A DNA stretch of 64,000 nt from Gymnorhina tibicen (taxonomy: Eukaryota; Chordata; Aves; Passeriformes; Artamidae): NCBI GenBank assembly GCA_013399875.1, contig VXAZ01001725.1, positions 333,575 through 397,574 on the forward strand, read 5' to 3'. Shown piece by piece: positions 671 through 56,610 of this stretch (position 1 is the first letter of the stretch; every line of letters begins with the position of its first letter). Under the pieces are notes generated by a model. The model saw only the letters and a program-made list of their open reading frames with translations. It was not told the DNA's origin and did no database searches. Made by a program: the position numbers and the translations under genes.

Positions 671-3600
671 GTAGGAAAACACTATTAAATACAGAGTAAT
701 TGCAGTGTATATTTTATTTTCAGCCCTTGTTTCTGATGAAACTGAAATTACAGGTTGAGGAGGATTTGGTGCTGGGATGTGTGTGCTTCTGTGAAGGTGG
801 ATATACAGCTGCACACTCTGGCACAGGCCAGGTATACAGGGAAAAAGGACTCCTTAAAAGCCACGTGTACTGAGATCAAGAAAATTATTTAACTCTTTTT
901 TAAATTAAATGATTCAATCAAGATTTCATTTTTTGGGAGATAATTTTATTGGGATGTTAAAAGGAGAGAAGGTTCAAAAAATGGGTAAGAAATAAAATAA
1001 CAAGGAAGAGAAGCACAGGTTTCTTGCTGATGGGAAGGGTGATTAAATAACAGATGACTCTGAGAAAACAAGCTTGATTTGTGAATTTTAAAGATTACAA
1101 ATGTCCCAAAAAAGTTTCAAATGTGGTCAGTATTAACAATAATATGTTAAGAAAACTGTCTTAAATGGGCAAAGAATACCCTAAAATATTCAACTTAGAT
1201 GAATATATTCAGGTTGAGAGGGCCGAGTATTTCAGTGAAGCAGGGAATTTGGGAAAGCAGTTTTTGAACAGTAAGATGATAACAATTGTATTAATACGTG
1301 AACGTAAAGAAACACAGAAAAATTACTATAATGGGAGGCACATCAAAATTAATTTCAAATCATAAATATCAAATAGATTAAACTGGAATGACTGCCTGGG
1401 GACCAATTGTAGCATGCTTTCATTAATCTTTATCATCCAAATGATTACACTTTTGTTTTTAATGATACTACCCTTGAGGGAATTCTGCTCCCTTTGGATG
1501 ACAGTTGTTGGAAAGCAAAGGGTCTTGGAAAGTGATCTTGAAATCTGGAGAATGAAATGAATTAAAGATGGATGCAAAAGACTGAGTCATTGAAGCACGG
1601 CATGTAATGTAGGGGGCACCAGGGGATAATTGTATTTGGAAGGAAAACGTCATTCTTGGTTGCATTGATAGGAACTGGCATGAAGGCAGTGAAGTTGCCA
1701 TTTTGGTTCTTGGTGGGATTAGGGAAAACTAAACTGAAGTGCTGCATTCAAGTTGGGATTTTTGGGTTCACTTGAGAAAAAACAGAGGACAGCAAAACAG
1801 ACAAACAACTTAGAAACTACTGTGTGAAGGAAAATTTTAATTCAGAGAAAACAATGTGGAGAAACAGAGACTTCATTCCATAGAAGAAGGTACTGGGGGA
1901 TAACAGCAATGCAGCTGTGTCAGAAAACACCTGCAGGGCCCAGCCCAGGTGGTGTGTAAGTGTTGTCTGGTGTCACCTGTGCTGAGCAGATGCTGCTGCG
2001 GCGCTGCTGTGCATTGACCAAACTGCAGAAGTATCCAGGTCCCTTCAGTTACAAGTTTGGGTGACCAAACTAATGCATTCAGCTTCCAAGGAGTTTGGTG
2101 ATGGACTGCTGTGTTTAACTCTACTTGTCTATTTTGGCTGGAAAACACTCTCCTTTCTTATTCCTTCACTTCAGGTATATACAGGGCTGAAAGCTTTTAG
2201 CAACTCCGTTAGTCCTTCCAGTTTTCGTGTGGAGGCCACTCCATTTTCCTTTTGACGCTTAAGTATCTACCCACAGCTAACATTTATCTTTTCTGCTAAA
2301 AAATATCTTAACTGATTATAGTGTGGTTTGTGTCTCCTGCAATTCAACAAAACCAAGGATTCTCTCCATTAACATACTGGATAAGGTCCTTCTGCTTGTA
2401 GAGTTCTGTTGGCTCCAACTGATGCTTTATGTATCCCAGCTACATGAAACTTGCACTTTATATGAAACTTTTAATAGTTAAAGTGTAACTTTCTTATAGT
2501 TATCCATAAATCCCATTCAAGATAAATCAGATCACCATTGCATGTTTATGCTTGAAAGCATTTGTGAGATGAGATGGATAAGACAGAACCAAAATCTGCA
2601 GATGCCAGGGAAAAGATGGTTGTTGGTGCTTTAGAGTTTTTTTTCTTCATGGGGGCAGATGAGATCAGATTTTGGTATCAAAACCCACCTATTGGAGGGG
2701 AGGAAATTCCATTTTGGAATTTTTTTTTTACTTTGAGTTCTGGATGTTTTTGGAACATCCCAGAAGCCAAGTGTGATTCTTGGTACAAATACTCCATACC
2801 TTTATGTAATGTCTGTTCTACCTCACTGCTCTGTTTAAAAGTATCCAAAATGGATGGAATTGTTTTGCTTGTTTTGAGTGAGCCTTAAAGCTGCTGGTCA
2901 AGATTGAGGAATTGTGATCTGTTGTAATATGAACATACCTTGTCTTTGATTGCTTTTCTTGGAAAAACAAGTGGCAGATGGCACTTCTGATCAAAGGTCA
3001 TAGTTAAAATTAAATATGCTGTTCTTTTCAGATGCTGATGTAGATAAACGATTCTACTTGCATAGAAATAATTGCTATATATATTTTAAAGAATTACATC
3101 ACATAATTGGGTGATTAGAATCTGGGAAAATTCATGATTAATCAAACTCAGGATTACATGTAAGGTTTTCAGTTCTAGCGTCTATGAAGGAAAGGTATTT
3201 CCCATCGTTTTTTACTTTCTGTAGATTTTTGTCATGTTTTGTACCTCTTTTCCGAGAATTCCTTTGTAGAATTTTGGTATTTGAACAAATTATTTTGTAT
3301 AATTTAAAAAAAAAAAAATTTTGTCATTCATCACATCAAACCAATGGACCAGAGAGATGAAACATTGTTCAAATGCTATTACTGTTCACTGGAAAAATCA
3401 GATTTTAGTGATCTCAATTTAAAAGTACATTTCATACATTTGGCAAAACTTGTAGCATTTAAGAGAAGAATGATCTCCTGTAAATGGGATGACATTCAGT
3501 AAAGAGGTTTGGCATGGATCTTTAATCCTTCAGTTGGGAGTTGGGAAAGCAGTTGATTCTAGATGCCCAGCTCAGATCAAAATTTGGATAAAATGACTGT

Positions 3601-6600
3601 TCCAGTGGAAGCTTTTATGCAGGTCATCTTGTCACTGAATTATCTTCATCATAATGACTAAATAGGTCGCTTGGGATATAGGTGTGTGCAGTGAGGATGT
3701 CTATTTGAAGGTGTTCATATATGAATTACTTGTTGGACTTTTATTGAACTTCTGAAAATGTATAATTAAGAGTTTCATTCCTGAAACTGAAATGATTTTT
3801 TTTCATTTTTAATGGATGTCGTTGTTCAGTTTGAATAGCAACAGTAATTTTAGTCATTATCGTGTATGGGTCTGACTCCTGAAGATTTTAGCCATCTGTT
3901 TATCACAGACTGTGCTATAAAAGTTGATTTTATGTATTGACTGTAATGTGTTGTGGTTTTTTTTTTTCAAACTCTGATATTTCAGATAGCTCATAGGTTA
4001 CTGTTGTGAGCTTTGTATAACTTTTCTTTCCGTGTTCCGGAATGGTAGCATTTCTCCCTTAACTGTTCAGAATCAGAATGGGTTTGATTAACCATCTTCC
4101 AATTTCCTATGGCTCTTTTCCCTGGCTGCTTTCTAAATGGCACATGGCCCCTCTTAGAGACTCGCTTGGATTCCCCAGGGCAGCAGTTTAAAACAAGCAA
4201 GGACTTGCATATTGTGCAGAGGAGAGAAACAGGGAAATGAGGCGCTGGCCACGGATGGATGCAGTGCTGCACTGGAATTCAGACTGATTCTCTGCTAGTT
4301 TTTCATAAAATCCACTGTATGAAATCAGAAAGGCTGTTTTGGGCCTAAGGGGGTTGACCATGCCCTTCTAAAGAGCTTAAGTGCTGCTCTTTGCTTTTGT
4401 TCATTTCCATTTAATGGCACTTGAAGAATTCTGATGTCAGGACAATAACAATAATCCAGCCAATCCTGGAGGTGTATAACATACATATGTATATGTGTGT
4501 ATGTCCTTGTGTATCTGCCATGTGTGTATGGATGCACACACGTATTTTTGTGCACACATGAATTGGATTTTTTAAAACTCTGAATGTTGATACGTTGCAC
4601 CTCAGCCAGTGCTATTAACTGAGCTGTTGGATTACCTGATATCACTTTAATCTCTTGCACCAGTATAAAAAACTGTTTTACATTTTTCACTGTTCTTCTT
4701 GTCCTCCTTTGTAGAGTCTGTGCATAAAGTTATGTTGCTTGTTTAGATAATCTTTTAGTTCTTTGTCACTGATGTGCTCAGATTCTATAGTAATGAAACA
4801 AAGTTATCAAGAGTGTTTCTTAATGTCACAATTAACCTCATTCTTTATCATTCTCTCCAAAAAAGAAAAATTGTGCTATTTGCAGTTGAATATCTGTAGG
4901 TCACAGTGCTGATGTTTCCATGTGTGGTAACAGACTGCACAGAAAATTACATGTGTGCTGCTGTGTGAAGGAGGCAAACATTTTTGAGGAGATAATTGCT
5001 ATACATTTTCTTGACCTTTAAAATACGCTTTCTCTTGATGTAACTTCAATGGAAATTTGTATTTATTTGAAGTTGACAAAGAGAAAGACGTTTAGGAGTA
5101 ATTTCCTTGTAAGAAAATACAAATAGTGCAATTTACCACTGCGAGAAACTGGAAAAACTAGGTATTGCATAATCACAAGTGTAGAGTTTTAAAAAGGCTT
5201 TATGAAGTATATTACCTTAATACTGATCTTTGAACTTGTAGTCATAGCATAAAGTTTAACATGAGCGACAGCAACATCCTGACCAATTATCCAAATTATC
5301 CAGACATCCCAAAATGTTCAGAACACAACACACAGAGTCTGTGGATTAAGAGGTTAACTCCTGGAACATCAAAAGAAGTGCATGATAATAAAAACAAATA
5401 GTACAAAATTTTGAGGTAACTTCCTTGCTTAATTAATTAGGTAGACCAGGTGGAAGCGAAGAGGCCAGAGCTGGTGCTCAGAATGTCTATAAAGCTGAGC
5501 AACATGACAGCACAATGGAGGAGGAACAAAGATTTTTTTAATATACTTCTATCCTGTGTCACAGTTTGAAATTGTCCTGGTTTATGTCCCTTTTGGCAAA
5601 CTTACATAAAAGTGACCCTGTACTGTATTTTATGACCAGATGACTTTTTTCCCAGTGGCTAATTTGTATCAGACCCCCATCTTAAAGAGACACAGAAATG
5701 AGTAGGAAGTCCAAGCCGGTTTGTCTCAATGAGCTTTCATTGCATGCTTTCATTATTTTTGCTCGTTTTTGCCACTGATCATCCATAAATTGTTGGAAAT
5801 GAGTGATTAAGGAAGTGCTGCTTAGTGTTAGTGGCACATGCACATTCTTGTTATGTTTTTTGTGGGTGAGAGGAAATCGCGTACTGCACAAACAAAAAGG
5901 AAAACTCCTGCTGGGAACCTTTCAAGGAAATTTAACTTGCGTAATGTTTTGATCTTGGTGTTTATTACAGAAAATAAGAGTAATATTTCACCAGCTATTG
6001 TTATGTGTCAGCTAGTCCCTCCATCTGCTTGCCTTTCCTTGATGGCTCTTCCCAAATTCTCAGTTTATTTTAATAAAAACACCACTTAAAAATATAGCAG
6101 TTTATTCATATGCTGAAGGCAGGTGAGCTGGGCCAGCGTTCAGAACATTTATTGTGTTGTGCTTGCTACTGTATAAAGATTTGGCTGTTCTGGCTGCAAA
6201 GCCCTGCCTGTGTTAGCAGCTGCAGCTTAACCTGTGCAAGTAAAACGTGGGGTGTAGTTCCTTTCCAGATAGTGAAATGCAGGGGTTTCTGCTCTTAAAG
6301 GCAGATTTCTTCCCTTCATCTCTTTTACTGAAGCATGGCTTTTAAAAATGTTTTGTAAGTAAAATTACTTATTTGGGGAGAAGGTGAAAAGTTGAAGCTT
6401 TGCAAAAATACTATCATTAACATTTTTTGAAACAGCTTCTTTTTTGCTATAATGTGTTGTTAGCTTGCTAAACAATCACAGTGTGTATGTCTCCCATCTC
6501 CTCAGTATTTGATTTGATCCACTTTATATTTATCAATAGCAATGATTTTTCCTAGTCATGTCACTATGAAATAGGACTGAACTAAGCTTAAGTTTGTGAT

Positions 6601-9600
6601 GTATTGTGTTGCAATGCACTGTGTTTGCAAACTCCAAGTTAAAAAAACACAGTAATAAATATAGTGAAAAGTGAACCTGCTGCTTTTTTATTTCTTGGTA
6701 GGTATGGAAATTATAATTTCTGTATTTTTCCATGTAGAAAATCTGTACTCCCAGCTTTGCTGTTTGTAGCAGTAGAACTCTGGTACAACTGTAGGTGTAG
6801 ACTACTATAAAGGACATTTCAGTGTGTGATGACAATGTAGGAAGTATGTTCAAAGTTAGCTTTAGTATTTACTTTTAGAAACTTTTTTGCTTATCTCAAG
6901 CAGATTTTCATGGAAAGAAATTTGTTCCTATATTGCAAAATACTGGCATATAATCCTTTCCAATATGAAATAATTTCTAATTAAAATCAGTCAGTTTTTA
7001 AAATTTGCCTTGATTTTTCTGCAAAAGGGATTTGGAGAGTTCAAGAATCTTGAGCCTTGTTTGCAAGCAGCATTTGACTGTGCTTTATGCTTTTTGATTG
7101 TACCTCTGACTGCAATACCCACAGGCCACTCTGTGTCATGGCTCACCAAATAGTCTTGAGGTGCCCTGCTAACAGTGGATGTTTATTTGGCATTTAAGCT
7201 CATATTTATTTGTCTATAAAATCATTCTGCATGAACTGAGACTTCAGTGCTCTGATGTCTATGAAATGTTTACTAGTATGTAGCTGAATTATTGTACATT
7301 ATATTACAACCCATTTACTCATTCCATTAGTAATACCAGAGACAAAAGTTGTTTAATCAGTCACATCAAAGGCAGCTGTTTGGGTTTGTATTTTTGACAT
7401 AAGCTAACATGTTAAATTCAGATATGAAGTCCAGTTTTTAAACTGGAGTCCTTTAAAATGACACCACCTAAAATTTATTAGAGTTTGTTGTTGTTCGGAA
7501 GCAGATCCTGATTATTCTGGGATTTTGATTTGGCAAGAAGCTTGATCATGGTTTTTCCTTCTCCCTATTAAAATAACGGGCATACCTAGCTGGCATTTGT
7601 ACAAACCCATAACTTAATCTGTAGGATGTAAGGTGCAGAGTTAAGGACTGTATTTAACTGTAAATCTTGCATTAAGGATAATGCCTATCTGGAAGCTTTG
7701 TGGGGTTCCTGATTCCGCTGAAGTCTCAGAAACAGCTTGTACGCAGCTAAATGTAGAGTGTATTTGGAATTTGTAATATAGAGGACAGCCCCATCTAATA
7801 TTAAGTATGAGAAGAGCTTATGAAATGGTTGGAAAGGGAAGATGAGAAGGTTTAGTATAACTTGTTAGCATGTCACATTGACAAGTGTTACGATTCTGAA
7901 AACATATTAAAATTACAGCTTTACACTACCAAGTCCTTTATTTGCACTTCTGCAGAGGAAAGAAAAATATTCTTACCTTACAGGTATATATATTAGCAAA
8001 TTAGTGTGTAAAGAGTTTGGTGATTGTTTGGCCTACTTTTGTGAATCTGTGACTGGAATCTGTAACTCTACTGTAGATTAGTGTGAAATGAAAATACCTT
8101 TGTAAAAGTAACGTCTGTTTGCAGTGATGTCTGTTTGCTGTCCTTTCACAATGACGTAAGAGCATGAAAATTACTACAGGTAAGTCAAAAGAGGCTGGGA
8201 ATCCTGGTTGTATTACTATTTTTTTGTATTTCAAAACCTTGATTTCAGCACACATAATTTTTTTTTTTTGCCTAAATGTCTGTATGTAGACGTTTAGGAT
8301 CAAAGGCTCTGCAGGACAGGTAAATAACATCCATGTATTTGACAGCTTAAGGTCACATCATATTTCACTGAGAGTGAGATAAAAAACTTCAAGAATCAGT
8401 GGCCAGGAGAGAGAAACTTGTCATATGAGGAATAATGGCTTAATATGAATCTGGTTTTGTAGATATATAAAATATCTTATCAGGTTTTTGTAAGACTTCT
8501 TGCTTAAGTCAGTTGGGGACATTATATGTAAAAATCTGCCTTTTTTATACTAGCATAAGGAGATCTGCAGTTTGTTGAACATAAGTAACAGTTCTGTATC
8601 TGGGGACAGCTGAGGGGGAAATAAGGGAATGTTGGTTGTTGCACACATTGGATCAAGATGTGATGAGATGTGATCTGTGCTCCGTTTCATTGAAGTAGTT
8701 AAATGTCAGTTGGTTGCTTCCATAAATTAGATGGTACTTCGTTTAAAGAGGCCTCAGTGTAAGGTACAAAAAAATAGGCTACCAGGAGATAAGCTGATGG
8801 TGGAGTTTATTTGGTACAGCTTTTCTGCACTGGTTGCCTCCCTGCTACTTTGTTATCTGAGCAGGAGTTCAGCCTTTCTGCAGCAGTGTGTGGAGTTGAG
8901 GTTATAATAACTTTTTCTGAACAACTCTATAATGCAGATAGAAAATCAAAATGTGTCAGGTTAGTTTGTGTTCTTGCAGCATTTTAATATATTTGAGCTA
9001 TGGAAATTTGTAGAGTAACAAGATGAACCAAGTGTTGTTAGTAATATTGGGGTAAAAATACTGCACAAAGGAAATGGTGTTACTCTGAAATGTGGTTTTT
9101 CTCATTGTGGCTTCTCTAGCATACTGTGAGAATCTGCATTAGGTGACGCATTATGAGTAGGTAGAGGCATCTGTAAAACTACTCAGTTTTGGAAGCTAGC
9201 ACTGGAGCATTAGTTATTCCACCTCACCCCAGCCAGGAATGGGCTGCATTGCTGAACTTTTGTGCTTTCCCCACGCCTACGTCGCCCTGAACTTGCACAT
9301 TTGTGCTGTATGTAGCATGCTTATGCTTTGTAGACTTTCCACGGTTTCTGCTAAAAGCCTTAACACGTAGCTGGAAGCCTGCAAATGGAATAAGAGCAGA
9401 ATATTTTCCTCTGCTGCTCTCTTAGTGGATAAATGGAGTTGTTTTTTTAAATTGGTTTTAGGATAACTTACGGAGTTCTGCATGAGCAAAAATAAACATG
9501 TTAAATACTTCTACTACTTGTAAAGTGTGCAGATGGTACAGCTACCAATGCTAAGCTTGAATCTCTTAGTTTATCTCTGTTGTAAACTGAAGCACTGGCT

Positions 9601-12600
9601 TCTAAAATATTTTTTCTTTCTAAGACACTTATCTTTAGGCATAAATAAGTAGCTTTTAAATTTTGTTTGTATGGAGTATTCTTAATGCCCTCTATAGACC
9701 CTTCTGTTTGTGGTAGATGTGTATCTAAAAACCCTGAGATGTAATTTTTTTCTTTTCTTTTTTATTGTCAGTTAATAATAAAATTTATGTAAGAATTTAA
9801 TTTAAAACTGAAGTGTTTCATGGAAAAATTTGCCATCCTTTGGGAAGGAAATAGTCACACATGCAGGATCCCTGAAATGGCTGTGATTCAGAGCCCATTT
9901 TTAGTCAATGGAAAAAGGCAGATGCCTCTAAGAATTTGGCATGTTTGAGTTAGAGGCCTCAAGAAGCAATGTGAGCATCTTCTCATCTCAGTGTGTTTGG
10001 ATTTATTTCATTAAATGGTCAGAAGCATTAAACTGATTTGTTGTTAGTTTTATTTGAAGTATGTGATTTGTTTTATAAAAATGGCTGGTTTATGCATGAG
10101 GAATATCTTAGTAAGTTTTGAATATTTAAATATTTTCACATTAGTCAGTGTCTTCATTTGCATCTCCATTGACATCAAGTAGTGACCGTTCAGAACAAGC
10201 AAAACTTTCTCTATTTGAAATCTATTTATGTGCTTTTGTTACTTTATATTAAAATTGAAAAATACTTACAGATTTACCATATCTGTAATTTTAATTCACA
10301 GAGAAGAAAATTTCCATAGGATTTTATATTGATTGTGGAAAGGTTTAATATAATTGTCTTAACCATAGAAAGGCAATAAGCATTTTTCTAATGAGTTTTC
10401 ACTTATTAAATGAAACTTTACTAGGCAGACACCACTTTTCATTCCTTCTCTAAAAGGAATGGTGTTTTGGTACTGATAACCATGTGATATTTAGATCTGT
10501 AGTCTATATTACTTATTTAGTATTACTAGAATTACTTCACATTAAGGATTGCTCTATATTAAGAATCACTTATTCTGAGCTGACATCTCAAGGAAGGAGC
10601 TTACACATCTGTAGTCAGAATTTGTGAGGCAGACAACAACTTCATTTACAAAGGAGGGGAGGAGGGAGAACCAAAGACTTTCTCCCATCCCTGTCCTTTT
10701 TTTTGGGTAGCTTTTTCAAGAGTTTCCCAGCTTATTAGTAGGAACTTCCAGCATTCTGTTGCTTTGACCAGTTCCTAGAAGCGTGCTTTCTTCTTGGGCG
10801 TATTCACTCTATCATGACTTCAGGGGATGTACTTTTGTTTTCTTTACTTATTTTAGAACTTTAAAAGTGACCTGTGTGCTTGTACATGTCATTTACTTTT
10901 GGTAACTGTCTTCAGGGTTTCTTTCTGCCAGAAGCACAATCACAAATTCCAAGTCTTTCTTTATACTTTGCGTTACTTGTCTTTATGCTCTGCCAAGCTA
11001 CAAAGAGGTTGGAAAACATCTATTTATCTTCCTATAGGCCAGTCTAGCAGGAAAGATTCTTTCTGATCCAAAAGTAAATGATTAGAGGGAGACTCATAGT
11101 GTCAGAAATCCCACAGCTCCCATGTTGTTGTTGCAGGTGGCTTTGGAAAGTCTGGGAAACTTGGTAGGTGGAGGGAGTGGAGCATCTGAGAGCTAATTAG
11201 TGAGGGCTGGGCTAGTGAATGGAACAACAGAGCAAACTTGTGGGGGAAAGGGGTAACACTGGGACACTTAAAATTTTACTGCAATTGTCCTTTCAGTTCT
11301 CATTTCCCTTCTCCCTGGAAGGTTTGGGTTGTACGTCCATAGATCTGCATAGGACAAGCTGCAGCAGGGTGGTCATGTACATCTTGACAGCTGTAGGCTG
11401 TATTATTTTGTTCCAGTGTGCTTGCATTTTGTCTGCTATTCTGTCTAGCTTTTCCTCATTTTAAGAAATTGGTATGTATTCTGGTATGTATTCTGTTACA
11501 AAATCTGGAAGGAATAATATTTCTAATGTACTATTTCTATGTTAAATCTACAAGAATGATACCTGATGTGGAAGAGCCATGGGTCTGCTCTTTGCTTGAG
11601 TAATTTGAATCCATGTATTTGAAACAGTGCCTTGACTGCTAGGCAATAAATGAATCTCACATTATTATTCTCACTGGAGTCCATCTTACATTGGATAATG
11701 AAATAGATCCTAGGGAAAAAAGTGAGAAAGAACTGTTTTTTATCCCAGTCATGGGGACTCAAGTCTGCAAGGAGTCCACGTTGGTTCTTAGGTTATTTTG
11801 CTGAGTTATTTGTGTGCAGTGGTGTCAAGAGGAATGTTTGATGGGTATGGACCCCAAACTATGCTATAACATTTTGGTTGGGATACTCCTCTGGGACACT
11901 GAAGAAGGGAGCGTAAGTTTTCTTCGGCAGAGGAGTCACTGCAGTGGGTGTACGGCATCCTCAATAGATGGCCTCCTCACCAGGCATCTTTTTCTTGAGC
12001 TCTGATTGAGGGATTTTGGTCCTTCACTTCCAACTTGGCAGGCATAACTGTAATGCTTATTTTTATATGTCTTTAGCCAGTACCCAAAGAAATAATTTTG
12101 GTTTTTTTCAACAAAACTTTCATTTTTTTCTCTGTCCAGTTCTTGGCTTCTCTTTGAATTTTCTGGATTTTTTTACTTATTCTCTGCAGCTGTTAAGTTT
12201 GATACAGTTCAGTATTCTGGCTGCCTACTCTTCCTCTGTTGACAGCATAGTAACAACTGTGAAACCGCTTGAGAAAAGACACTAACAGAAGAATCAGCTG
12301 AAAGTTGCTGGGAATATTTTATGACTGAATTTTTCATGTTTGTATTGTGTGGAAAATAAATATAAACTTTAAAATATACTTGTGTTGTGATGAAAAGTGC
12401 TTATTTTAATCTTAAAATCCCCACAGGCTGGGAAGATTCTGTGAGGGAAGAGGTGGTGTAGGAGAAGCTGCAGTCAGTGCTTGTTACAGTCTGAAGTATT
12501 TGGTTCTTGTATGGGCAAGGAAATGTTGTTTTTTTGGTTTTTTTTTTTACTTGAATGTGATGCCTGAATATATTACTTCTTGATTAAAATCTTCTTAGCT

Positions 12601-15600
12601 TGCTCCATGTGGGTTCTGAGTCATTAGCAGCTGCATTTTTAAAATGAACTGAGTTTTCCTAAAACTACAGCATCTGTTTTTGACTGAGCAATTTGTGTAG
12701 TCTCATAAGGTAATGACCCTTGACTAAATATCAGTGTGCTAAATGTAGTATGTGTTTAATGTTGCCTGATGCAAAATGCTTCTCCTTTTCGTATTAAAAA
12801 TTTGTTTGTGGACTGCCTTGAATAGGTCACAGCAAAGATTGCTCTAAGTCTGCTGTCAAACCATAGAAGTGGGTGAAATGCTTGACCCTCATCACTAATG
12901 CTCACAAATTGAGAAAGGGGGTGTTACATGCTAAAAAATGTAATTGGGGTTAATATATAACATCCCCAACCTCATACCCAGTGTAATTCTCCCTTTTTTA
13001 GTGCCTCCACTTTTCCTGCAGATGTTATCATGTGTGTTTGTTGCTGTCAGCCCCTCACTGAACAAATCTTGAGGTTACTAAGACTCCTTTCTGTCACGTG
13101 AAAACAATGGGTGTCATGTGTACTTTAAGTGTGCCATGATTGCAGAAATGTTTCCCAGGCTTTCCCCATGGCTTAGGGCGTAGTGTAAAAAGTGATGTTT
13201 ACCTACCTTGCAAGAGGTCAAGATGTCCAAGCAGAACTGTGTTCAAATATTCAGCACCATAGAAACTTAGTTAGCACTCTCTGATTTTGTGTGTAACATG
13301 TAATTTTTATTTCATTGATGATAGGGTGTTTTATTATTTTTCTTCTTCTGCACAATTTCAACCAAATTAAAATGCGGAATTAACAAAAGCCATTCCATGT
13401 CCCATATTGGCAGCGTAGCTCCAGATATGTCCATCTTATAGGTCCTAATAATATGTTCATCAAAATCTCTATAGCCAGGTAATGTTACAACAAAGAAATG
13501 CTTTTTCTTAAGGTGAGGATGGGGCTGTAGTTCTTTGACTTTACCAGGAATTTTGCCTCTTGCAAAAAGAGAAGATAACATATTGAAAGGTTTTCTAATC
13601 ATTCATCAGCATTAAAACAAAAGAACTCTTGGTAAGTATCTCTACATATATGTTAAAATCCATAAAGCATTAGACAGCATTAAAAACTATGCTTAGATTT
13701 CTGAAGAATAATATTTGTGTTTCTAATCATAACTGGCAGAGCATAAATTGGCAAAAAATGGCTTGATTGCTTGCATTTATGTAATAATTCTTTCCCAAAA
13801 AATAACAGCTTGTGAGTTCCTGGCACAGGCTTGTGCCACTGCTCGGAAGATAATGTTATCTTCCCCAGTGTCTTTCCTGGAATATGGTGCATGTCTTACC
13901 TTAGCATTGCTAGAATGGCAGTTGTCAGAGATTTCCTTTTAAACTTTCCAGAGTTTACGTGTGGCTCTTAATGGAGAGAGGAGCAGGCAGGAGGTTTCTT
14001 GCCTGTGCAGTGCCCTTGTGAGTCAGGAGAGATCCCTGTTATATGAGAGGCCTGAAACTTGGTGGACAACCAGTGTGCAAGGCAAGGTCTTCACTTGTAA
14101 CTGGTGCCAGATTAATGGCAAAGCATTCTGTATTGTTACATTTGAGTAGTTCAAAGTAGTTACAGAATTTTAAATGGGGAAAAAAGCCCCCAACACTTTT
14201 GTCTCCATTATCAAGAAATTTTCCTTTTCCTTATTGAAGAGCTGTAAGAACCAATCACCACACGTTATCTTCTAAAGTAAAACCAGTCTCTAGGTGTTAT
14301 GTGTGAACACACATAGCAGGAAAAGTCTTAATGTGTTATAAGTGGCATAATAGTCATCCCTCAACACAAATGTACTGCAGGGGAGAGGTGGTTTCCTTGG
14401 TAATTATGCTTTCTGAGTTGCTTGTATGACAGCTGTTATCCCTTCAGGACTGTTGTTACCATTTGTACTTCGTTGGGTTTTTCAGATAAAGAATTGCCTT
14501 TTTTGGCCATGTGCTGTTTTTTAATATCTTTTGGCTATTTGTCATCCAGGATGACTTATCTGTGTTAATCATAATAGAAAAGAAACATGGTAAGATTTTG
14601 ATGATGCCTTCCAGAGCAGCAATTAAAAATTTGTCAGAACACTTCTAAAATAATTAAAACCTTTCCTGCTAAAATTAGACTTTTCTGGAAACATGAACCC
14701 TTAGGCCTGGTGCTCCAGGCAGCATAAGTAGCTCAGGATTAAACTATAAAAACTTCTGAATGTCTTGACAATTCAATTTTAAAGAATTAGAAGTCTGAGA
14801 GTCAGATATCTCTAAGGCTATACAAGCCACAATATCCTTAGAATGTGAGTGTGGGACAGCTTTTATTTGTAGGCAGGCCTTGAGAGCTTCAAATGCTCTT
14901 TTTTTTTCACTCTCCCCATTAGTGCACAGAGAGGATGACAGATATTACTGGGCTTCTGGCAAGTTGCAGTCTGCTGGGATTGATGTGTTAAATATCTTTC
15001 CTTTAATAAAATACTTCACTTGGTTAAGTGCTCATGTTAAAGAACTAGGTGGATTTTGAAAATACACTGTGAGTGAAAGTGTGGGTGAGCTGTGGACTCG
15101 TAAGCTGTGAAACTTTGAAGTTTAAAAAAAAAGAAGGTGGGGGATTTGAGGGTATAATATGTCAGTCCTTTTCCTCAGTTTTCTTGATAAACAGTTAAAT
15201 TACAATTTCTATTGGATTATAGTAATTTGCTTCCAAAAGTTTTTATCATATTTTTTTTTCATCTTCCACAAGAGACTCCTTTAATGTGTCAGTCAGCCTG
15301 TAAGATGTCAGACTTCTGCTTAGAGACAGTAGGGAACCACACAGGGAATTGACTTTCAGGAGTGGCTTTTGCTTTATGGATAATCTGAAACTCAGCTGGA
15401 GGAATTTGTAAGGTGTTGGGTGTGTTTTGTTTTCCTGTTCAGCAGTTACCAAAGATGTTGTTATATGCTTGTAGTGCATTGACAGTTGATGCTTTGTTCT
15501 GGATACCTTCATGGAAAAACACTTTAAAGTGGAGTTACTGAAACCAAAGCCACTGTTTAGAAAGAGAAGTACCACCTTCCTTCAAAATGGAGGGTGTTCG

Positions 15601-18600
15601 TGCTTCCTAAACAATGATCCTGAGTCCATTTTGGGAACACGTCCCTCTCATTTATTGGCATGCAGAGAAGTTTATGTATGAATTGAAGACCAAAGATCAG
15701 ACTCTTTTCGACACTCCTGGCCTTTCTTTTTAGCTTGCATTAGTTCTATCCTGTTGCTCTTTGTGTTCCACTTCCAGTTCATCTCCTTCTCCTTAGTGTT
15801 TACAGCCCTCTCCCTTCTCTGCCCATCCCTGGAGAAACAACCCAAGTGTGTACAAAAGTGAGGGTGCTTTCTGAGCCCCTTCTCTTTAATAAAAAAATCT
15901 GTTTGTGTAATTCTGGGTTTTTTTTTTTTTTCCTCTGGTATCTTCAGAGAGTGTCTGGAGAACTAACCATGCTTTATATTGCTTCATCTGTTTCCATTGA
16001 TGAGAATATGTCCTGGTTACAGATTCAAATTTTCTAATCTTTGAGTGGCAAATAGTCTTTCTAATTGTAGGCTTTGTCCTAGACAAGTTTTTTTTTTTTT
16101 AAAAGGAATATATTTTTCCAGGTCCTCCTGCTTCCCTTATTTCTTTCCCATCCCTTTCTCCTCATGCACACAAATGTAACCTGAAGTTACAGCAGTGTTC
16201 TTAGTGTATAGCAGTGAGTGTATGAAAGCCCACTACCTTAATATGTATTTCAATTGTCCACTTAATTTTATAATGTCAAACTTAATCACATTTTGTGAAA
16301 ATGAAGCCAGTGTATTTTTACATTTTTAATTATTTCTAAAGGCTGTGGTTGTGTTAATCTCTTAAATTTACAGCACAGGAGTGTTATTTAAGGCTGTGTA
16401 CTTAATGCTGGACTAAAATCTATGTTTGATGTTTTAATTGATTGTAATGGTTTAGGCCAAATTCAGGGAAACGTCCAAAAGGAACGTCTTCTCAAAGGAA
16501 GGCAGGTTACAACCACCCGTCCCCCCAGCTGGGTTTGGGAAAAAACAAATTTTCCTCAGAGGAAAGTGAAGGAGAAAATAAAACTATTTATTTAACAAAC
16601 ACACAGGAAAACAATACTAATAATGCTAAATAATAAAATCTCTCGCTCTGGAGAGAAAACCTGAAAGATTTTAGAGTCCTTCTGTGGGTGTNNNNNNNNN
16701 NNNNNNNNNNNNNNNNNNNNNNNNNNNNNNNNNNNNNNNNNNNNNNNNNNNNNNNNNNNNNNNNNNNNNNNCAGGAATCATGTCTGGGCATAGAGCAATG
16801 GTAGGGGATACAACAGCACAGTCACCCCAAGACATTGATAATGGTGTTGAGGTTGTTCTCCTTATGCCCACCTTTAATAAGCCATATAGATATTTTTAGT
16901 CTGTATCAGTCTGCATATTGTGTTTGAATTCTTCTTGAAGTACTAGAACACAGGATAGCTACAAATCAGCCTTTTTCCTCACTGGAGGCATCCTGGTGCT
17001 TTGCTGTGCAATCCATGCTTGGTTTGGAGGGTGTGTTAATGGTGAAATAGTGTTTGTGTAACCAATTGCAGTTTTGAAAGCTGAGATACAGAACCACCTT
17101 CTGAAAAACCTGATGCAGTCTAGTTGGTTGTATAGTGCCGAATAAGCTGTTTGTCCTTGTTTAGAATGCTGATTGGAAATAGTCTTGTGTACCTACGCTT
17201 TGTGTTTTCTCATACTGCACTGATGTTCTGTGCTCAAGGCAGATCCACTGAGAAATAAATGTACTCTACAAGCTGATTTCAGATCTCCAGTTTTAGATGG
17301 GATTGTTGATGGTTTTGAAGATGTCAGGCTCTACTGCTCTTTTTCACATACAGGGGAAAAAATGTGAGGAGTAAATGGATTCAAAAAGTGCAACAGGTAT
17401 CATGTGAAATAGAAGTGGCAGTGTCTTCAGTGCCGGGACATTTGGTTCATCTAAGAAATTTGAGTAATATAATGAAACTGTAGGAGAGAAGTGAAATGAC
17501 TCAAAGAAGAAATGTTAAGTCAAAACCAAAATGTCAGGGAAGACGTTTTTGCTCAGGAAAAAAAGAAAAGAAATAAAGCACTGAACTTCAAGTTTTATTT
17601 GGATAGTTTTGCTTTACTGAAATAAAATGAAACATTTCTTACATGTACCTGTATCTTTCTCAAAGTCAGGAGTACAGATTCTTGCCCAGCTCTTTAATTA
17701 CTGATGTTACTAATAATAGTATTCAAGCTTTGTATTTTTCAACCTGGATAAGCAACACTACCCTCATTAAAAAGAAGAGGTAAATAAGGGTGTCTAAGGT
17801 TCATTTCTTACTACTTTTTTACTGTGAGGGTGCCTGAGTACTGGCAGAGGTTGTCCAGAGAGGTTTTGGAATCTCCGAGCTTGGAGATACTCAAAAGATG
17901 CTTGGACATGGTCCCGGCAACCAGATCTAGGTGTCCCTGCTTGAGCAGGGAGTGGACCAGGTGACCTCTGGAGGTCCTTGCCAACCTCAATCATTCTGTG
18001 ATTCTCCAGAGGTTTTCTCTGTGTGCACGGAGTGGGGTGGAAATTCTGTACCTTTCGTTGCTTTCAAATAGCAGCTATTTGGCAGGTACTCTAATGTATG
18101 TATGTAAGTATGAACTAAAGTGCCTGGAACATTAATGTTTTCATAGGGCACAGTCTTATGGGTGCCTAATTGAGATTAAGTATTTACCTATGTACTTTAA
18201 GTGTCATAATTTCTTTTTTATCCTGGACCATTATCAAGTATTCATTAGTGCCTAGGACAGACTATTTCTATCTAGTCACTTCACCAAAGTTCTTAAAAAT
18301 ATTACTATTTCACTATTTTTAAATTATCATCAGAGTGTGAATCCTAGTGTGTGTGCTGTGCAATAAAAAAATTGTTCTGCCCTCAGCAGAATGGAGGGAG
18401 TTGTCAGTGGTAACCTTACTGTTGTGCAGAGGACTGGTGGAGGAGAGGAACTGGTGTGCTACAAGGGATCAGTGCTCATGTTAGGATGCCTGAGGTCCTC
18501 GTTCATGGTTGGATGCAGTAATTATGTAGAGAGCATAATTTTCAGGGTAAATGCCATATAAAGATTACCCTTAAGTAATCCATAGTTAAGCAGTGAGGGA

Positions 18601-21600
18601 AGAGGTTATAAAAATAGAAAATATAATGAAGTAAACCACAATTTCTGCTTTTAACTATCGAGTAGTCCTTGCAGTGGAATATCCCCAAGCCGGGGTGAAC
18701 CTGTGTGAGAAACAAGTTGGGTTTGCTTGTGGAGATGTATACTGGCAAACAAAGAAAAATAAAAGTAAAGTTGTTATTTGAGTGTCAATCTGATGGTTCC
18801 TTAATGGCCTGGATGCCTGAAGAAAGCATCCTAATCACTCTATTGCTCAAAATTAATTACATTAGTGATAACACCAGTCAAAAGTAAATCTGATTTTGTG
18901 TGTTACTTGGTATATTTTCGAATCTAGTACTCAGCTGTTGTAGCGTTGTTACATTTTCAGACTCGAGCAGATGCCGTGGTCTGTGTGTGATCTGTGTGTG
19001 CTCGGTGGGGCCGGGGCAGGGTGGGAGCTGTGCCTGAGCGGGAGCCGGGAGCAGCAGTTCCGCAGCCGAGCGCTGGAGGGCTCCGCAGACTGACGGCTGC
19101 GGGAGGGATTTTAAGGAAATTGCTGCATTGTACCTGCGCAGGGTTTAATGCTTGCCGGGCCATTTGGCTATTTGCCATAATTGGCTTTCCATTCCCTTGA
19201 TTGGAATCATAGATAAAAATTTGCTAATCCACTTTCTTTGCTGAAAGTATTAGAAAAGTAATCCATCTTTTAAAAATGCTCGAACAAAATCATGTGGTAT
19301 AAAGAGTACTTTATGGAATAATGAGATTAATGAGAACTGTAAGGCATATGCAATTTAAAACGTTTTTCTATGGGTTTAAGGGGAAAAATGCAATCTGGGC
19401 ACTATAAAGCCATAAGTACTTCCTTTTTTTATGCACTACCTTTTAAATGTGCATTACATGTTATGCTTTTGTCTACATGATAAAATGTGAGTATATATTT
19501 AGAAAGAAGGATCTGCTATTTGTTTGTAATTTCAAAAATGTTTGAAAATACCTGATTAAAACTTCTTGTCTGTGTTTTTTCCTCTGTCTCACCTCTTCTG
19601 CCCACAGGGCATCAGAGCACGGATTTTGGAAACCCTTGTAATGCTCATTCTTCTTGCACTGCTTATCCTTGGAATTGTATGGGTGGCTTCAGCACTCATA
19701 GACAATGATGCTGCCAGTATGGAGTCTTTATATGGTATGGAATGCAAAAGAACCTTCGCACCAGTTTCATTGTAAATACAGAAATGCAAGTTTCCAGTTA
19801 AATGTATTTCTAGTATGTGCTATGTGAGTATTGCACCGGTTGTGAAAAAGGTGTATTAATTCAGCCAGCACCATTTTTTTATGTTAAATTCTGTGACATA
19901 AGCAGCCTGTTTGTAATAAGCTAAAGCTGTGCTCAATGTGTTCTTTACAGACCTCTGGGAATTCTACCTCCCATATTTATATTCCTGTATATCACTGATG
20001 GGATGCTTGTTACTTCTCTGTAAGTATTTTCCTCATTACTCCAAAAGATGAATGATTTTGTGGTGGGGTTTTTTTTTTGTGTATTGTGTTTAATTTTTTT
20101 TATGGTTAAAGGGAACTTTTTGATTGTGAAAGTTTGTTGAAAGAAAGTTGTTTCTGAGTAAATTTAAATTTAGATGTGAATTTGTTAGGTTTGGGTTCTG
20201 AAGTTTAAATAAATGGTACCTTACATTTTGGAGAAACTTTACACCTCACCCAAAACAATTCCAACTTCAAACTTGTTAAAACAGGTAGTTGAAAAATAGT
20301 TGAATTTCTCCATTCTGCAAAGAAAAGCACAATTTTTAAAAGAAATGTCTGCAGGAAGTCGGTCGTATGGTGAGAAAATTATTTTGGAACATTTTGTCCT
20401 ATATTCAGTAAACTGCCATGCTTCCTTTTGTAATTTAAAATGTTGCTGTATAGGCAGGAGTTGGAAGACAGTGCCGTCAGCTTTCATAATCACACAGCTG
20501 GTCTCTGGCCAGTCTGCAGGTCAGTTACACAACTGCATTTGGAACAAATGCAGTAAAAAACCAACCTTACACCGACTGCTCCTAACCAGAGTTCAGTCAC
20601 CTATGTTTAGGGGAATAAGAAACATGATGGAAGGCTCCAAATCCCATTTATAATCTCAGCCCCCTCCTTGAATAATTTCTAGAAAATTGCTGAGAGGGAC
20701 AGAATGTCTCCCTTTCTAGACTATTACGGTTTCATCTCTTCTCCAAGCTTGACAGGTTCAAAGCTTACATGGGGCTGTCACTGTGGAGGAAGAGTGGGGA
20801 ATGATAATTTGTAATATCCTTTAAACAGATCTGTCTGTGAAAGAGACCTCGGTGAGTCTCCTTAGGTTCTTTGTATGTGCAGATTCTCAAATCCACTTTG
20901 GTGGAAGGTGGGAGAATTAAACAATGTGCTTTTCAAAGTCTTCTGCAGGCTGTTCCAGAGTGGGATTGACAGAGGTGTTGAACACTTTAATGGGAATTTG
21001 GTTTACAAAACTTCAAACCTGCCCTGCAGTTTGCTTCAGCTGAAAACGCAGCCTCTGTTCTGGGGCTGTTGTAAAGCAGGTCACCAAAATTACTGCAACT
21101 AAATGCCAGGTTTCGGAAATGTGTAACTTAAAAAAGCAAATCACTGAGGTGAAGGCCCTCCTAGCTGTTAGGTCTGTGTAGCTGAAAGGGCAGTATACAG
21201 CAGTGGGGCAGCTGCTGGGGTAGAGCTTCTTTAGATCTTCAGTTGGTTTAATTGCTGAAGCAGTGTTTGAGTAAAGCCTATTGCGGTGGTGATTTGGAGC
21301 ATCACTTCCTTTCTCTTTTGTCCTTTTCCTGCAGGATTCTTCTGCAGTAAAGGCAGACTAGTTTAACTTAGATTTTTGAATACTCTTGTATTTCTCCTGT
21401 AATACGTAGTAGCTACAGTAAAATGCTAGTTAATAAAAATAAATGCAATCTTTGCAATAAAATCTTGTCTCCTCTTTTTGGCAACAATGCTTTATTATAA
21501 TGGAAACTATAAATGTACATCCTCATCCATGTAGTTATAAATTCCTTCATCTCCTACACATTTCAGTATTTGAAGGCTGCTTTCCCTAAAGTGTTGTTTT

Positions 21601-30600: not shown

Positions 30601-33600
30601 TGGAAACTAATGAGCCTTGACCTTGACTTTGCTTCTAGGTTTCATTCCTGTGCCCACACAAACATTTATTACATGTCATGTTGTAGCGAGTTCTTACTAA
30701 AAGAGTGCAGAAGCTTTATGTAGATACAGTGATGCAGTAAAGCAGATCAGTAACCTGGAGTTTGCCGTTCTGTCTTAGCAATACATTTCACTGCAGTTTG
30801 GAAGCTGCTGATGCCATTGTGTGGGGGTGGGGGGACTTGGAGGGTAGGACATCAGAACCCCCTTGAAACACTGAATTGAGAAAAGGCTGTATTTTATGTA
30901 AGGCGTTACATGTTTTGTTCTTGGTAGAAGTTAACTTTATGAACTGTTGCATGTATCTTATTTAATTATGCAAAGTATCTTTTTCCTTGTAGGGGCCTGG
31001 AATAGGAAATGCCTCCTTATCCACCTTTGGCTTTGTGGGAGCAGCACTTGAGATCATTTTGATTTTGTATCCTTTCTGTAAGAATTCTGTCTGTTAACAA
31101 GTATTCTGTCCAGTTTTCTGGGACACTGGTAATACACTAAGGTATTTGCCTGGAAAGAAGAAAGAGATAGGTCAGTCCTTCTCAAACACTCGAAGTGTTT
31201 TTGTTTCTTTTTTCTTTAGTTCTTAAGACTGCTAGGAGACTGCTGAGAACTTGAGTGAAACTTGCATTCCTTGGAGGTTCCTTTTTCCTTGATTCTCACA
31301 GCTATCTTATGGTATCTTCTGTCGTCGGCTTCTACAGCCTTCGTTTTTTTGAGAATTTCACTCCCAGGAAGGATGACACAACTATGACAAAGGTAAGGTG
31401 CAGTCTGGGATGGGGGTGGCCCCCTCCTGTCTCTCTAGCCACCCAAGACAAACTGACTCTCTCAGTAATTGCCCTGAATGGCTCATTTGCAGTGATCAGT
31501 ATTTGTTTGTAAGCTGCGTAAACACAAACTGGAAGATTTTCAAAATGCTGAATGAGTGGGAAAAAGGATGTGCTCTGTTTAGTTTGGATGGCATCCATTC
31601 ACTTGTAAAAAGCCAGGAATGGCAGAGCTTGTTAACTGGCTATAGAAAAGCAAGTGAAAGAACTTTCTTCAAAGGAAACTTATTGCTAATGAGTAACTTT
31701 GATTGTGTTAACTGTACTTCAGGGAGCTTGTTTGAGATCTGAACAACGTGGTTGCTAGAAGTAATACAGACAAAGTAATTCAAATTTGAATAATGAAACT
31801 AAGACTGAGGAGGGCTATTCAGCAACATTTTGCAATCTGAAGCTAATTTGACTTTCTACAATTTAGCACTGGCTTTAGAATAACCGATTCCGTTACCTAA
31901 TTCAGAGGAACATGCCTAGGTTTTTGGCAAAATATTCCCACAGCTGACAAGGGGAAGTGATCAGTAACCAAGGAACTGATGTTGAATTTAATTATTTTTT
32001 CAGTATGTTTCATTGTTTCTGGTTTGTTTTGGTTTTTTTTTGAGTAATGGATGAAGATATATTTACTACAAATTGTTGGAAGCGAGAAAGTGGGTATGCA
32101 CACAGAATGATTAGAGTAACAAGTACTAGAGAGTTGGAATGTTCTTAATATTTCCTATTGACTGTTTGCAGTACACCAGGAATAGCGTAGAAATAAATAG
32201 TGAATATACAAATGTCTAACTACTTTCAAGTTTTCTTTTTTTTTTCTTTTGGCTTCTGATAGAACTAGACCTGAAGAAAATGATCCCTTGTGAAAGAAAG
32301 TTTTAATTACTCTTTTTAAAGGCTTTAGAAGAACAAGAGTAAAATCTAACAGCTGTGAATTTTTTCATACTATTTAAAGTAGACAACAGGCATTGAATTG
32401 AAAGGAAGCTCTTTGTTGTAATTTTTTAAATAATGCTAATCCTGCAAGCAGTTACATCCAAGGCTTAAGCTGATGTATCAGTCATCTATTCTAAGCCCAT
32501 GGAATTGTTCTTCTATAAAACATTCACAGGAAGTAAGTAAACGATGCTTCGCAACGTGGTAGTTTTGAATTATTTTGAATCTGAGCATACATAACACTTT
32601 GATTAAAAGCACATGAATACATATTTGATTTTTTTTTTCTTGGATTGTCTTCGTCTTGTTTAACACCATGTGGAGAAAGTGACAGAAGTCAGCAAGACTA
32701 ACAATGTTACTGTAAATTGCTTTAGGTTCAATTTGAAGAATGTGCCTTTTAAGAATTCTTCTTTTTCATCTTGACCACTGTTTATCTTTGTGTTCCCTTC
32801 AGCAATCCCATTTATCATTTTAATGCTGTTTGTCATTTTCAAACAGATAATTGGAAACTGTGTCTCAATCTTGGTGCTGAGCTCTGCTTTGCCAGTGATG
32901 TCACGGACACTGGGTAAGTGAAATGGAAGTAACATCATAGTAAAGGATGTTTAATTGAATTAAAAAAAAAAAAACAACAAAAAAGAACCTGTAGCTGTAT
33001 TTTCCATAGTATGTATTTAATTTGCCATCACTTCTAGTGGAAAGAGCATGTATCCATGGCCTTCATTTCTTCACCAACATGAGCTGTTGAACATACATCT
33101 GTGTACATGAACTGCAGAGCATACTTTCTAAAAAGAAAAAGATGCTAAGCATTTTTTAGAGAATATATTATTTTAAGAGGGTCAGATTTGAAACTTCTTA
33201 AAACAGGAGACTATGACATGAAAAGGTAGGAAAACTGATTGTCCAGAGGAGTATGACATAGTTTCTTGTTCACCGTGAAATTAATTCTTAGTTCCTGTGA
33301 AAAATTTGGGATTTGGTGTCAGAAATTTGAGGTAACACTGAGTGCAAGAGTTAATGACTCTTCATTTATTAAGTTTTTTAATCAGCAGTGATACCAGGCT
33401 ACTTTCATTTTCCCTACAATAATATGTTTGTATTTTTTGTTACTTCATTTTTCAAATTTAACAATTTGGAGTCTACTGTAGCAGAACTGAAGAACTTCTG
33501 ATTTCATTGTGAAGGACTGGCAGTAGCAATTGAAGTAGTTAAGCTGTTTTAACCAGTTGGAAAGTCGTGTTGTATCTTCACTTTAATTAGGTAATCTTCA

Positions 33601-36600: not shown

Positions 36601-39600
36601 TGGAACTTTGGGTCTAAGCGAGTTATCAGACCTGGGGAATTACAAGTATGTGGGCTAAAAGCACTAAGGATACATAAAAGCTGCATAAAAGGGTATATGA
36701 AAGGGTATATGAGAGGGGTATGTAAAAAAGCAAAAAATCATCATGGCATCAGGGTCAGCTTCCTTCTTTTGTGCTGTTGTGAGGACACACTACACTCTGA
36801 CATAATCTGTGCAGGAGGTTTTTGGGAATACAACAGCTTTTGAATCCTAGACAGTGGTCATGTGGCTGTCATCTCGATGTTCTGCCATGTATTCAGTGCA
36901 GTACTCCATGACACCTTACAAAGGAGCAACCTGTAGTTCTTCCTCCTCTGCATTCTGGGATGGGCCCTACACCTTGTAGACGTTTCCATGTTTCAGAAAA
37001 ATGTTGTTCCCTTAACTAGTGATTGACATGCCTTTGATCAGCACAAAGCCAAGTGTCAGGGTTGGAGGTGCACTGTGAAGAAGACCTGTCAGCACTATCT
37101 TTCAGCCTAACTCTTTTCCTTCTGTGCAAATGCTCCATGGCTGTAGTGGTGGGCAGATACAGGAGAAAAACTGCAGTTGGAAAGATGTCTTTAAACTTTG
37201 ATTTCAAAAGCAGTGCTCTGGAAAAAACACTTAAAAGGCTTCGTGTTTACCATAAGATGTTGTGGCTTTCATAGAAAGGCTGTTTGCTACCTGTATTTTT
37301 TAATAAAAAAAGCTCATGGTGCATTTCATTCTTTTTTGGAATCATTAAAGATTTCATAGAAAGTGAGGTTTTAAGCAGTTTTCATACAAAAGCTGATTTT
37401 TTCCTAGTTACATTTATTAAAATTATAAAAAGATATTTATATTTTAAGATTCTTATCTATTCTAGATAAGAATTATCTAGAATAGACAATTCACTTCAAC
37501 TCCCATTATTCAAGCACTTTACTATGATATTTTAAAAAAATTTTGGTAAAGGTGTCTTACAGTTTTATAGTGACCAACAAACATTGTCTGTGTGTTTAAC
37601 CATGTGTCTTCTGGTGTGTTGTCTGTAAGAATTTTGCATACAAATGTAAACGTAATAGAATGAAATTTTTGCGCTTCCTAAATGAATGTCATGACTATTT
37701 TGATCTAAGTCTTGCATGCAATTTAACAGGAATCACCAGATTTGATCTGCTTGGAGACTTTGGAAGGTTCAACTGGCTGGGGAACTTCTATATTGTGTTA
37801 TCGTACAACTTGCTCTTTGCTATCATGACAACGTTGTGTCTGGTCAGAAAGTTCACTTCTGCTGTGCGAGAAGAGCTCCTGAAGGCATTAGGTAACACAG
37901 CCCTGAAAATTCACTGTGTGCTTGAACATTCCCTTTCTCCACCACTGACACCTTGACGTGCTACTTGTAAAGTTCTGTCACAGCTCACAGAATACTTTTT
38001 TTTGATGGGAATTTCTCTAAGTTAAGGTGAGAGGATGAATAACGTTGTGTTGTTTTTTGAAGAGTCCAGAGCTAAGGTGCAGGTGTTGACTTTAATGATA
38101 TGCCTGTGGTACTTACTGATCTGCATTTTCAGTCTTTGGAGAGCACAGAAACGTTCTCATTGCTATGAGCAATTATTCCAAATTAAAACTTCAGCTTGTG
38201 TATGGGTTGGCTTTTTTCTTTATTGTTTAAAGGAACTTAAGAGTTCCCTAAAAATAGTTAGCAGAGATCTTAACTGCTTTGTTATGCTTTTTCTTGAGCA
38301 TCTATTCAGAAAATCTTTGTACAGAATGTACAGAACCTTAGTAACTGGCTGAGTAAAACCTGTACTTGATATAATCAAAAATTTGATCAAATTTTGCACT
38401 GTTTCTTGACCTTGGAAGAAAGGATTGAAACACATTTGATACTAAGAGGATAAAATGTTTTTTTTTTTAATTGTTGTTGCCTCATCTTAACTTTACTAAT
38501 TAGCGAAGCTCCTATCTCTTTAGATCCCTAAAGTATTATTTGCTTAAATTGAGAGGACTAATGGTGAAACTTTAGTGTTTCTTTGTATCTGAGGATTCAG
38601 TTTGCATCATCTAGAAGTTACTCATGTTAGTTTTCACTGCTTTCAGAGTTGTGATGCTGAAACAAAATCCAAGCACTGCCCAGAGTGCACCTCTGCTGGT
38701 GGTAAATTAGGTTACAATTATTGTAAAATAATTAGAAATATAGTGTTGAATAAAGAATTATATATGTTGAAGGCAGATTAACAAATTTCAAAACGCAGGC
38801 GTAGTAGGGTGATGGTCACTGGATTTGACACAAGTAGGGAGTTACAAACCCTGAAGTGTGCAGGTACCCGACACAAACTGGGTTTGTTTTCAGCGCTGTA
38901 CATAACAAATGGTGTCTGTTAAAAACTGTCCCATGGAATTCAAAGAATGAGAACCGAAATTGGCCTATGACCTAAAAATTCACGTATTAGGACTACAAAT
39001 AAGACAATACTAAGGAGATTTTTGGTTTTTGGTAGCGCAATAAATTTTGGAATTCCAGTTCCAACAGTGCAAGAAATTAAACTTTGTACATCATGGCACT
39101 TGAATAAAATATTCAGTGTAGTCTACATGAAATGAATAAGAAACTCTTTCCAGTTTTGATCCTTAATTTTAGAGACTTGATAGAAGACTTCAGAGAGGAA
39201 CTGTAGCAAGCAAGGAAGGACTGACATTATGCCTCTTTGAATAAAATATGGCTAAATTTTCTGTCTTTCCTCGTCTCACCCCCTCCCCCTCACAAAAAAA
39301 AAAAAAGTAATTTAACTGCTTGCCTGGGGCAGGATGTGAGATTTGAATTAGCACTCACAATAGAGAATTGTGCAATAAGAACAAATGGTTGGAAACAGAG
39401 ATAAATCAGTAATAGTGTAGTCCTGAAAATGTAATTAGACATATAAATAGTCACCCCAAGACACCTGGTCATCACCAATGACATTAAGATCAGCAATGGA
39501 TGATTTACAAAAAGATGATATAGTTTAAAAGAAATATTTTAGGTAATTAGTTAGGTCTTTGTAGGCAACAGGGTAAATTATTGCAAGTCTTTCTTGGTTC

Positions 39601-54100: not shown

Positions 54101-54606
54101 AAAAAAGAATAAAGTGCTTCATCATAAAATAGCTTTAAATTATATTTCCTACCATAAAAATCTGGAATCAAAATTACTTTTCAAGATGATTACATTTAAT
54201 TCATTAAGATATTCACTTAGGTAGTTTAATTACAAGACTCATGTATTATGTGCTTGAATAGTTATATAAAAATGTACTCACTTAATGGACTACATGGGAA
54301 CATGAATGCAGCACCTGTTTTTTCAAAGGCAAAAAAACAACCCCAAGAACCAAACCTGACTTTAAAGCATTCTAACAGCTGAAAAGGAAAAAAAAATGCT
54401 GACAAGAAAAATTCTGACTGCCTGAAAGGTCATCAGTTTCCTTCTGTGATTACTGCGATCTTTCAAGTGAAAATAAAATTAGTTTATGAATCTGTGAATT
54501 TTGTGTAAACAGCACATGGGGTGGCAGAAAGCAAGAAATGGCAACTGCTACTGGCTGGAGGAAAAGATTATAGAAGAAACATTTAAAATGAAATTCGATT
54601 TATTTT
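51101..54606. other. Intergenic or intronic sequence, nothing firm
   Basis: About 3.5 kb without a recognised mobile element. At 53227-53297 (+) a TTTTAG acceptor precedes a short open frame (SKEDGMNRLTKQLSGSSAAC then FL and stop) that could be a terminal exon but is too short to support. At about 53860 (-) a GTAAGT donor follows a 53-codon frame. Confidence 0.4.
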
Positions 54607-54852
54607 TCTCCCCTTTCCCAACAGAGACATTACATTTCAAGAAGTGATACACATCAAATGCAGCGTTTCTCACATACAATAAAACAAAAGAGAAAGTATG
54701 TTGACAGGCTGCAAGAAAACTTCACCTTTATCTGGCCTAAATTCCCACCAAATGCTGATGATCTCCATCCTGACAAAAGATACAGAGTTGGACAAAAAAG
54801 CAATTGGCTCTCAGAGGAAGGGAAAACTGGGAAAGGAGTGAAACCCAGAACG
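54607..54852 (+). CDS. Candidate unidentified internal exon
   Basis: An excellent pyrimidine tract (TTTTTCTCCCCTTTCCCAACAG region ending about 54623) precedes an open frame that runs to a GTGAGC donor at about 54857. The frame contains the hydrophilic peptide KQKRKYVDRLQENFTFIWPK and FPPNADDLHPDKRYRVGQKS, which is unlike low-complexity chance translation. I do not recognise the protein and found no partner exons. The alternative is coincidental splice motifs around a chance ORF; exact ends are approximate. Confidence 0.25.
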
Positions 54853-54859
54853 AGCGGTG

Positions 54860-56290: not shown

Positions 56291-56610
56291 AGTACCTAAA
56301 GGGACTACAAGAGAGCTGGAAAGGGGCTTCTGACAAGGACATGGAGAGATAGGACAAGGGGGAATGGCTTCAAACTGGAAGAGGGTAGGTTTGGATTAGA
56401 TATTGGGAAAAATTCTTCCCTGGGAGGGTGGTGAGGCCTGGCACAGATTGCTCAGAGAAGCTGTGGATGCCGCATCCCTGGCCAGGTTGGCCAGGTGTTC
56501 AAGGCCAGGTTGGACGGGGCTTGGAGCAACCTGGTTTGGTGGAAGGTGTCCCTGCCCATGGCAGGGATTTGGAACAAGATGATCTTTAACTTCCAACCCA
56601 AGCCATTAAT
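56291..56610 (+). mobile_element. CR1 LINE 3' fragment
   Basis: The stretch closely follows the avian CR1 3' region on the + strand: AGATAGGACAAGGGGGAATG, TTGGATTAGATATTGGGAAA, GGGAGGGTGGTGAGGCCTGG, CCTGCCCATGGCAGGGATTT and GATGATCTTTAACTTCCAAC. It is only moderately diverged. An internal GGCCAGGTTGG repeat suggests a small duplication. The final ATTCTATG repeats are degraded. Confidence 0.92.

Follow-up and report, generated by a model that had tools for sequence, protein, structure and literature searches.

LMBR1 and neighbouring genes

The window analysed here, a stretch of 64,000 nucleotides from contig VXAZ01001725.1 of the Gymnorhina tibicen assembly, carries exons 5 to 17 of LMBR1 and, within intron 5 of that gene, a conserved non-coding element. 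A tblastn search with a human LMBR1 query returned 17 exon matches, in order and all on the forward strand. Four of these, exons 1 to 4, precede the window (at about -22.8, -8.9, -6.6 and -4.7 kb). Exon 5 was placed at 567-670 with its splice ends set by eye (match 557-670, amino acids 104-141, 95%) and is bounded by an ag at 565-566 and a gt at 671. Exon 6 occupies 19608-19739, the 3' end being approximate (match 19605-19739, amino acids 141-185, 91%), and 11 ordered matches between 19950 and 39952 account for exons 7 to 17. Since the gt donor is at 671 and exon 6 starts after the ag at 19606-19607, intron 5, the host of the element, extends from approximately 671 to 19607 on the forward strand. 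The Pfam LMBR1 family (PF04791) scored just below its cut-off of 31.9 bits on exon 5 (E 2.1e-07, 30.7 bits) and below it on exon 16 (37648-37893; E 1.3e-05, 24.7 bits), while two of the four LMBR1 exons given to Pfam had no LMBR1 match, namely exon 6 and 30993-31070, which matched no family. Chicken LMBR1 is described as having 16 introns (PMC4747547).

Upstream of the window, at approximately 69 kb, an MNX1 homeobox was found, and downstream of LMBR1 lies RNF32, on the opposite strand; in chicken MNX1 and RNF32 are reported on those same sides of LMBR1 (PMC4747547). RNF32 looks degraded here (53396-60688, reverse strand), with in-frame stops in two of the four stretches that match a human RNF32 query, which follow one another at 60688-60421, 56126-56004, 53835-53718 and 53506-53396. 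The exon limits are rough. With the same query no convincing match to the C-terminal part of RNF32 (about amino acids 229-362) was found at the locus, which divergence could explain; the chicken gene is annotated with 8 exons (PMC4747547). Two other features of the window stand apart from these genes. The segment 28001-29000 has an unusual G-over-C skew (0.376) and a GC content of 0.455, above its neighbours, and open frames overlap there on both strands. On the reverse strand, short open frames at 63012-63188 and 61904-62125, and also near 56400-56600, have a peptide style that may resemble the 3' ends of avian CR1-type LINE fragments.

SHH is 328 kb from its limb enhancer, the ZRS, in chicken (PMC4111902). 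No tblastn match to an SHH query was obtained in the readable parts of C405:645001-741000 and C405:213575-477574. A genome-wide search for hedgehog domains, again in the readable parts, found only one gene, on another contig (C662:119947-125876 of G000; L032, L033), which we take to be IHH: against reference proteins, its exon 1 is 97% identical to IHH and 87% to SHH, and its exon 2 98% and 96%, respectively. Because parts of the genome read as N and the contig was searched in part, this non-detection does not amount to absence, and a gap or an unreadable stretch is the most likely reason for it.

Identity and limits of the intronic element

We compared the window with the 821-bp axolotl ZRS as printed in PMC12176643, where it served in a transgenic reporter. 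A blastn search of the whole window aligned bases 1-821 of this reference end to end with positions 5214-6007, in an alignment of 832 columns of which 658 are identical (79%) and 49 contain gaps, scoring 702 bits. The second-best match in the window, a word of 17 bases, reached 31.9 bits, and no match of the axolotl sequence in reverse exceeded 25.6 bits. In a global alignment of the axolotl ZRS with 5214-6007, 664 of 782 aligned columns were identical (85%) for a score of 809, compared with a maximum of -424 among 50 pieces of 794 bp drawn at random from window positions 7000-63800. Seven exact blocks (53, 48, 31, 29, 27, 21 and 21 bp) are common to the two sequences, and the element has the same orientation as LMBR1, on the forward strand. 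Judged on its sequence, the 794-bp core at 5214-6007 is almost certainly an orthologous copy of the ZPA regulatory sequence (ZRS, also known as MFCS1), the limb enhancer that lies in LMBR1 intron 5 and acts on SHH at long range. A ZRS had been proposed for this place in the initial annotation, and the end-to-end axolotl alignment, the random-piece control and the site words described below all bear this out, as does the position of the element between exons 5 and 6 for the proposed location in LMBR1 intron 5. With the axolotl ZRS aligned, neither of the outcomes named beforehand as counting against the proposal, no alignment to a ZRS or a match to another locus, occurred.

Published oligonucleotides gave a further comparison. 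Among seven wild-type chicken ZRS oligos from PMC5633194 and PMC4747547, four occur exactly in the element and two with one mismatch, while ZRS-FWD has no good ungapped match and, when inspected by eye, departs from the locus in a single T within a run. An amplicon of 389 bp in chicken (PMC4747547) has a counterpart of 388 bp in the window (5493-5880). With three of the seven oligos slightly different, this ZRS is therefore close to, and not identical with, the chicken reference allele. PMC5138840 supplies six human oligos, of which two fall in the element, with 0 mismatches in 18 bases and 1 in 25, and the other four do not place in it. Three of five oligos from mouse (three oligos, PMC10830414) and newt (two oligos, PMC11591917) match best inside the element, with 5 mismatches each, and the remaining two do not place there. 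An Rfam scan of the window gave no match, as would be expected of an enhancer. A search of the bird's own genome (1.02 Gb) for the ZRS placed it at one site, from a partial query match in an assembly that is N in parts, and the element is likely to be single-copy.

The interval first assigned to the enhancer, 5045-5860, overlaps 647 of the 794 bp of the element and to that extent holds; the limits defined by alignment are 5214-6007, so that the earlier interval includes 169 bp of additional 5' flank and misses the last 147 bp. The flank (5045-5213, forward strand) is on the pre-ZRS side and beyond the reach of the axolotl reference; a pre-ZRS has been described as lying some 500 bp 5' of the ZRS itself (PMC6232527). 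We rejected a 3' limit at 5860, as the axolotl alignment continues to 6007. Likewise, it is the locus, and not 5045-5860, that fits the description of a full-length copy having all main motif blocks, because ETS words 4 and 5 (starting at 5871 and 5925) fall in the omitted 147 bp. In chick limb reporter tests, activity requires the 3' part of the ZRS (PMC12263586), and losing these 147 bp thus matters to anyone using the coordinates; the corrected limits keep the 3' part in the annotation. The case also illustrates that a non-coding regulatory element can be recognisable to a reader from raw sequence.

Binding sites within the element

The element keeps the published order of its five ETS words, its four Hox words of the form CATAAA and its three E-boxes; the numbers used for them here were given by order along it. 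The ZRS is described as having five ETS sites of the form AGGAA(G/A)T, with AGGAAAT in the last two towards the 3' end and AGGAAGT in the rest (PMC3314984), and the core shows this pattern, with three AGGAAGT words followed by two AGGAAAT words. ETS word 1 (5419-5425, reverse strand) lies inside AAGGAAGT, and the others are all on the forward strand: word 2 at 5704-5710, word 3 at 5810-5816, and words 4 and 5 at 5871-5877 and 5925-5931, both beyond 5860. AGGAA(G/A)T occurs six times in 5045-6010, five of these in the core, against an intron 5 mean of 0.77, and AAGGAAGT occurs twice against a mean of 0.15, the element being counted in both means. The sixth ETS word, AGGAAAT at 5101-5107 on the reverse strand, lies in the 5' flank, some 107 bp before the core begins.

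Four CATAAA Hox sites have been described in the ZRS, with sites 1 to 3 around the WMS position (PMC5561167). The same arrangement is found here, with Hoxsite 1 at 5581-5586 (reverse strand), Hoxsite 2 at 5605-5610 (forward), Hoxsite 3 at 5629-5634 (reverse), which adjoins the WMS position, and Hoxsite 4 at 5784-5789 (forward). Extra CATAAA words at 5199 (reverse strand) and 5248 bring the count in 5045-6010 to 6, compared with an intron 5 mean of 1.53 that again includes the element. PMC12263586 words two Hoxd13 sites of the ZRS as [CT]AATAAAA, of which the element has one literal match, TAATAAAA at 5386-5393 on the forward strand, compared with two in the axolotl ZRS; the second Hoxd13 site may be the CATAAA adjoining the WMS position.

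All three E-boxes are present, on the forward strand. E-box 1 (CAGGTG, 5447-5452) was assigned by position, being 'near ETS1' in PMC12263586, and E-box 2 (CAGATG, 5637-5642) is the consensus HAND2 site of the same source. E-box 3 (CACATG, 5835-5840), also assigned by position, begins 18 bases past ETS word 3, a spacing that agrees with the report of an ETS site less than 20 bp from E-box3 (PMC12263586). Taken together, E-boxes show no enrichment in 5045-6010 (8 found, 10.4 expected), and we dropped their number as evidence for a ZRS. A lone CAGATG is near chance as well, with 0.92 expected in 5045-6010, and E-box words are weak evidence alone because they are short and near chance frequency.

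Two positions known from limb phenotypes could be located. The human reference letters 402C, 404G, 406A and 417A (PMC5832050) all agree at a single offset of 5221, which puts the putative equivalent of human ZRS position 404, the Werner mesomelic hotspot, at 5625 (forward strand) with the reference G kept. Across the window, 238 of 63,583 offsets would give the same four-letter agreement, so this one serves only to align the human numbering. The Silkie polydactyly SNP (rs80659072), located with probes published in PMC5633194, falls at 5738 (forward strand), where the wild-type letter stands: the wild-type probe matches 15 of 15 bases at 5731-5745, as against a single mismatch for the mutant probe.

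Integrity and proposed function

On sequence grounds this is an ordinary ZRS, of a known kind, in its expected location and apparently intact. The output of the ZRS can be altered by single-base changes (PMC5633194, PMC10830414), and the three chicken oligos that differ slightly here could be read in that light, as traces of an orthologue whose limb function has been lost or changed, a decaying copy of the sort known from snakes. In snakes, an ETS site and HOXD13 sites are reported to be missing (PMC5561167), the ETS loss being given as ETS0 and ETS1 in PMC12263586, whereas in the copy of this bird ETS word 1 is present, as is one word of the HOXD13 type. It also keeps all five ETS words, all four CATAAA words and the three E-boxes, has the wild-type letter at the Silkie position and has the seven exact blocks of 21-53 bp in common with axolotl, all of which argues against decay and leaves a loss or change of limb function very improbable. 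Introns near developmental genes may carry several conserved elements, and the sequence might in principle be a different conserved non-coding element of LMBR1 intron 5 or a chance resemblance, but this has a negligible probability given the end-to-end match to a reporter-tested ZRS, the matches to chicken ZRS oligos and the far lower control scores, and the alignment already contradicts it.

For the intact ZRS orthologue that we favour, the behaviour of its orthologues suggests that 5214-6007 would act as a limb enhancer. HAND2 and 5' HOXD proteins, together with ETS1/GABPA, would be expected to bind the ZRS in the posterior mesenchyme of the limb bud, and the bound element would then activate SHH over several hundred kilobases, with ETV4/ETV5 predicted to restrict its activity elsewhere. 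Lineage-specific substitutions outside the known sites might in addition tune the level or timing of SHH in the wing or leg bud. We consider this improbable, and nothing seen in this copy indicates such tuning. The sequence does not look like a new kind of element and adds no new enhancer biology.

Comparison with other vertebrate ZRS sequences

Human, mouse and chicken were compared through oligos and reference letters taken from the literature. For human and mouse (MFCS1), the described sets of ETS and CATAAA sites are also present in the copy studied here, while the mouse oligos match it poorly. The chicken ZRS is a 794-bp element in LMBR1 intron 5 (PMC4111902); the two birds thus have the intron in common, as well as the wild-type letter at the Silkie SNP, and the equal length of 794 bp is suggestive only. 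The axolotl ZRS is collinear with the copy here over its whole length at the 79% identity given above, with 20 extra bases near its 3' end. Within this shared framework, axolotl has CAGACG in place of the CAGATG E-box, CAATAAAA at the aligned place of Hoxsite 2, where CATAAA is found here, and no AGGAA(G/A)T at the aligned place of ETS word 2, which is AGGAAGT here. As Hoxsite 2 and CAGATG show, some of the described sites are thus not the same in all limbed vertebrates.
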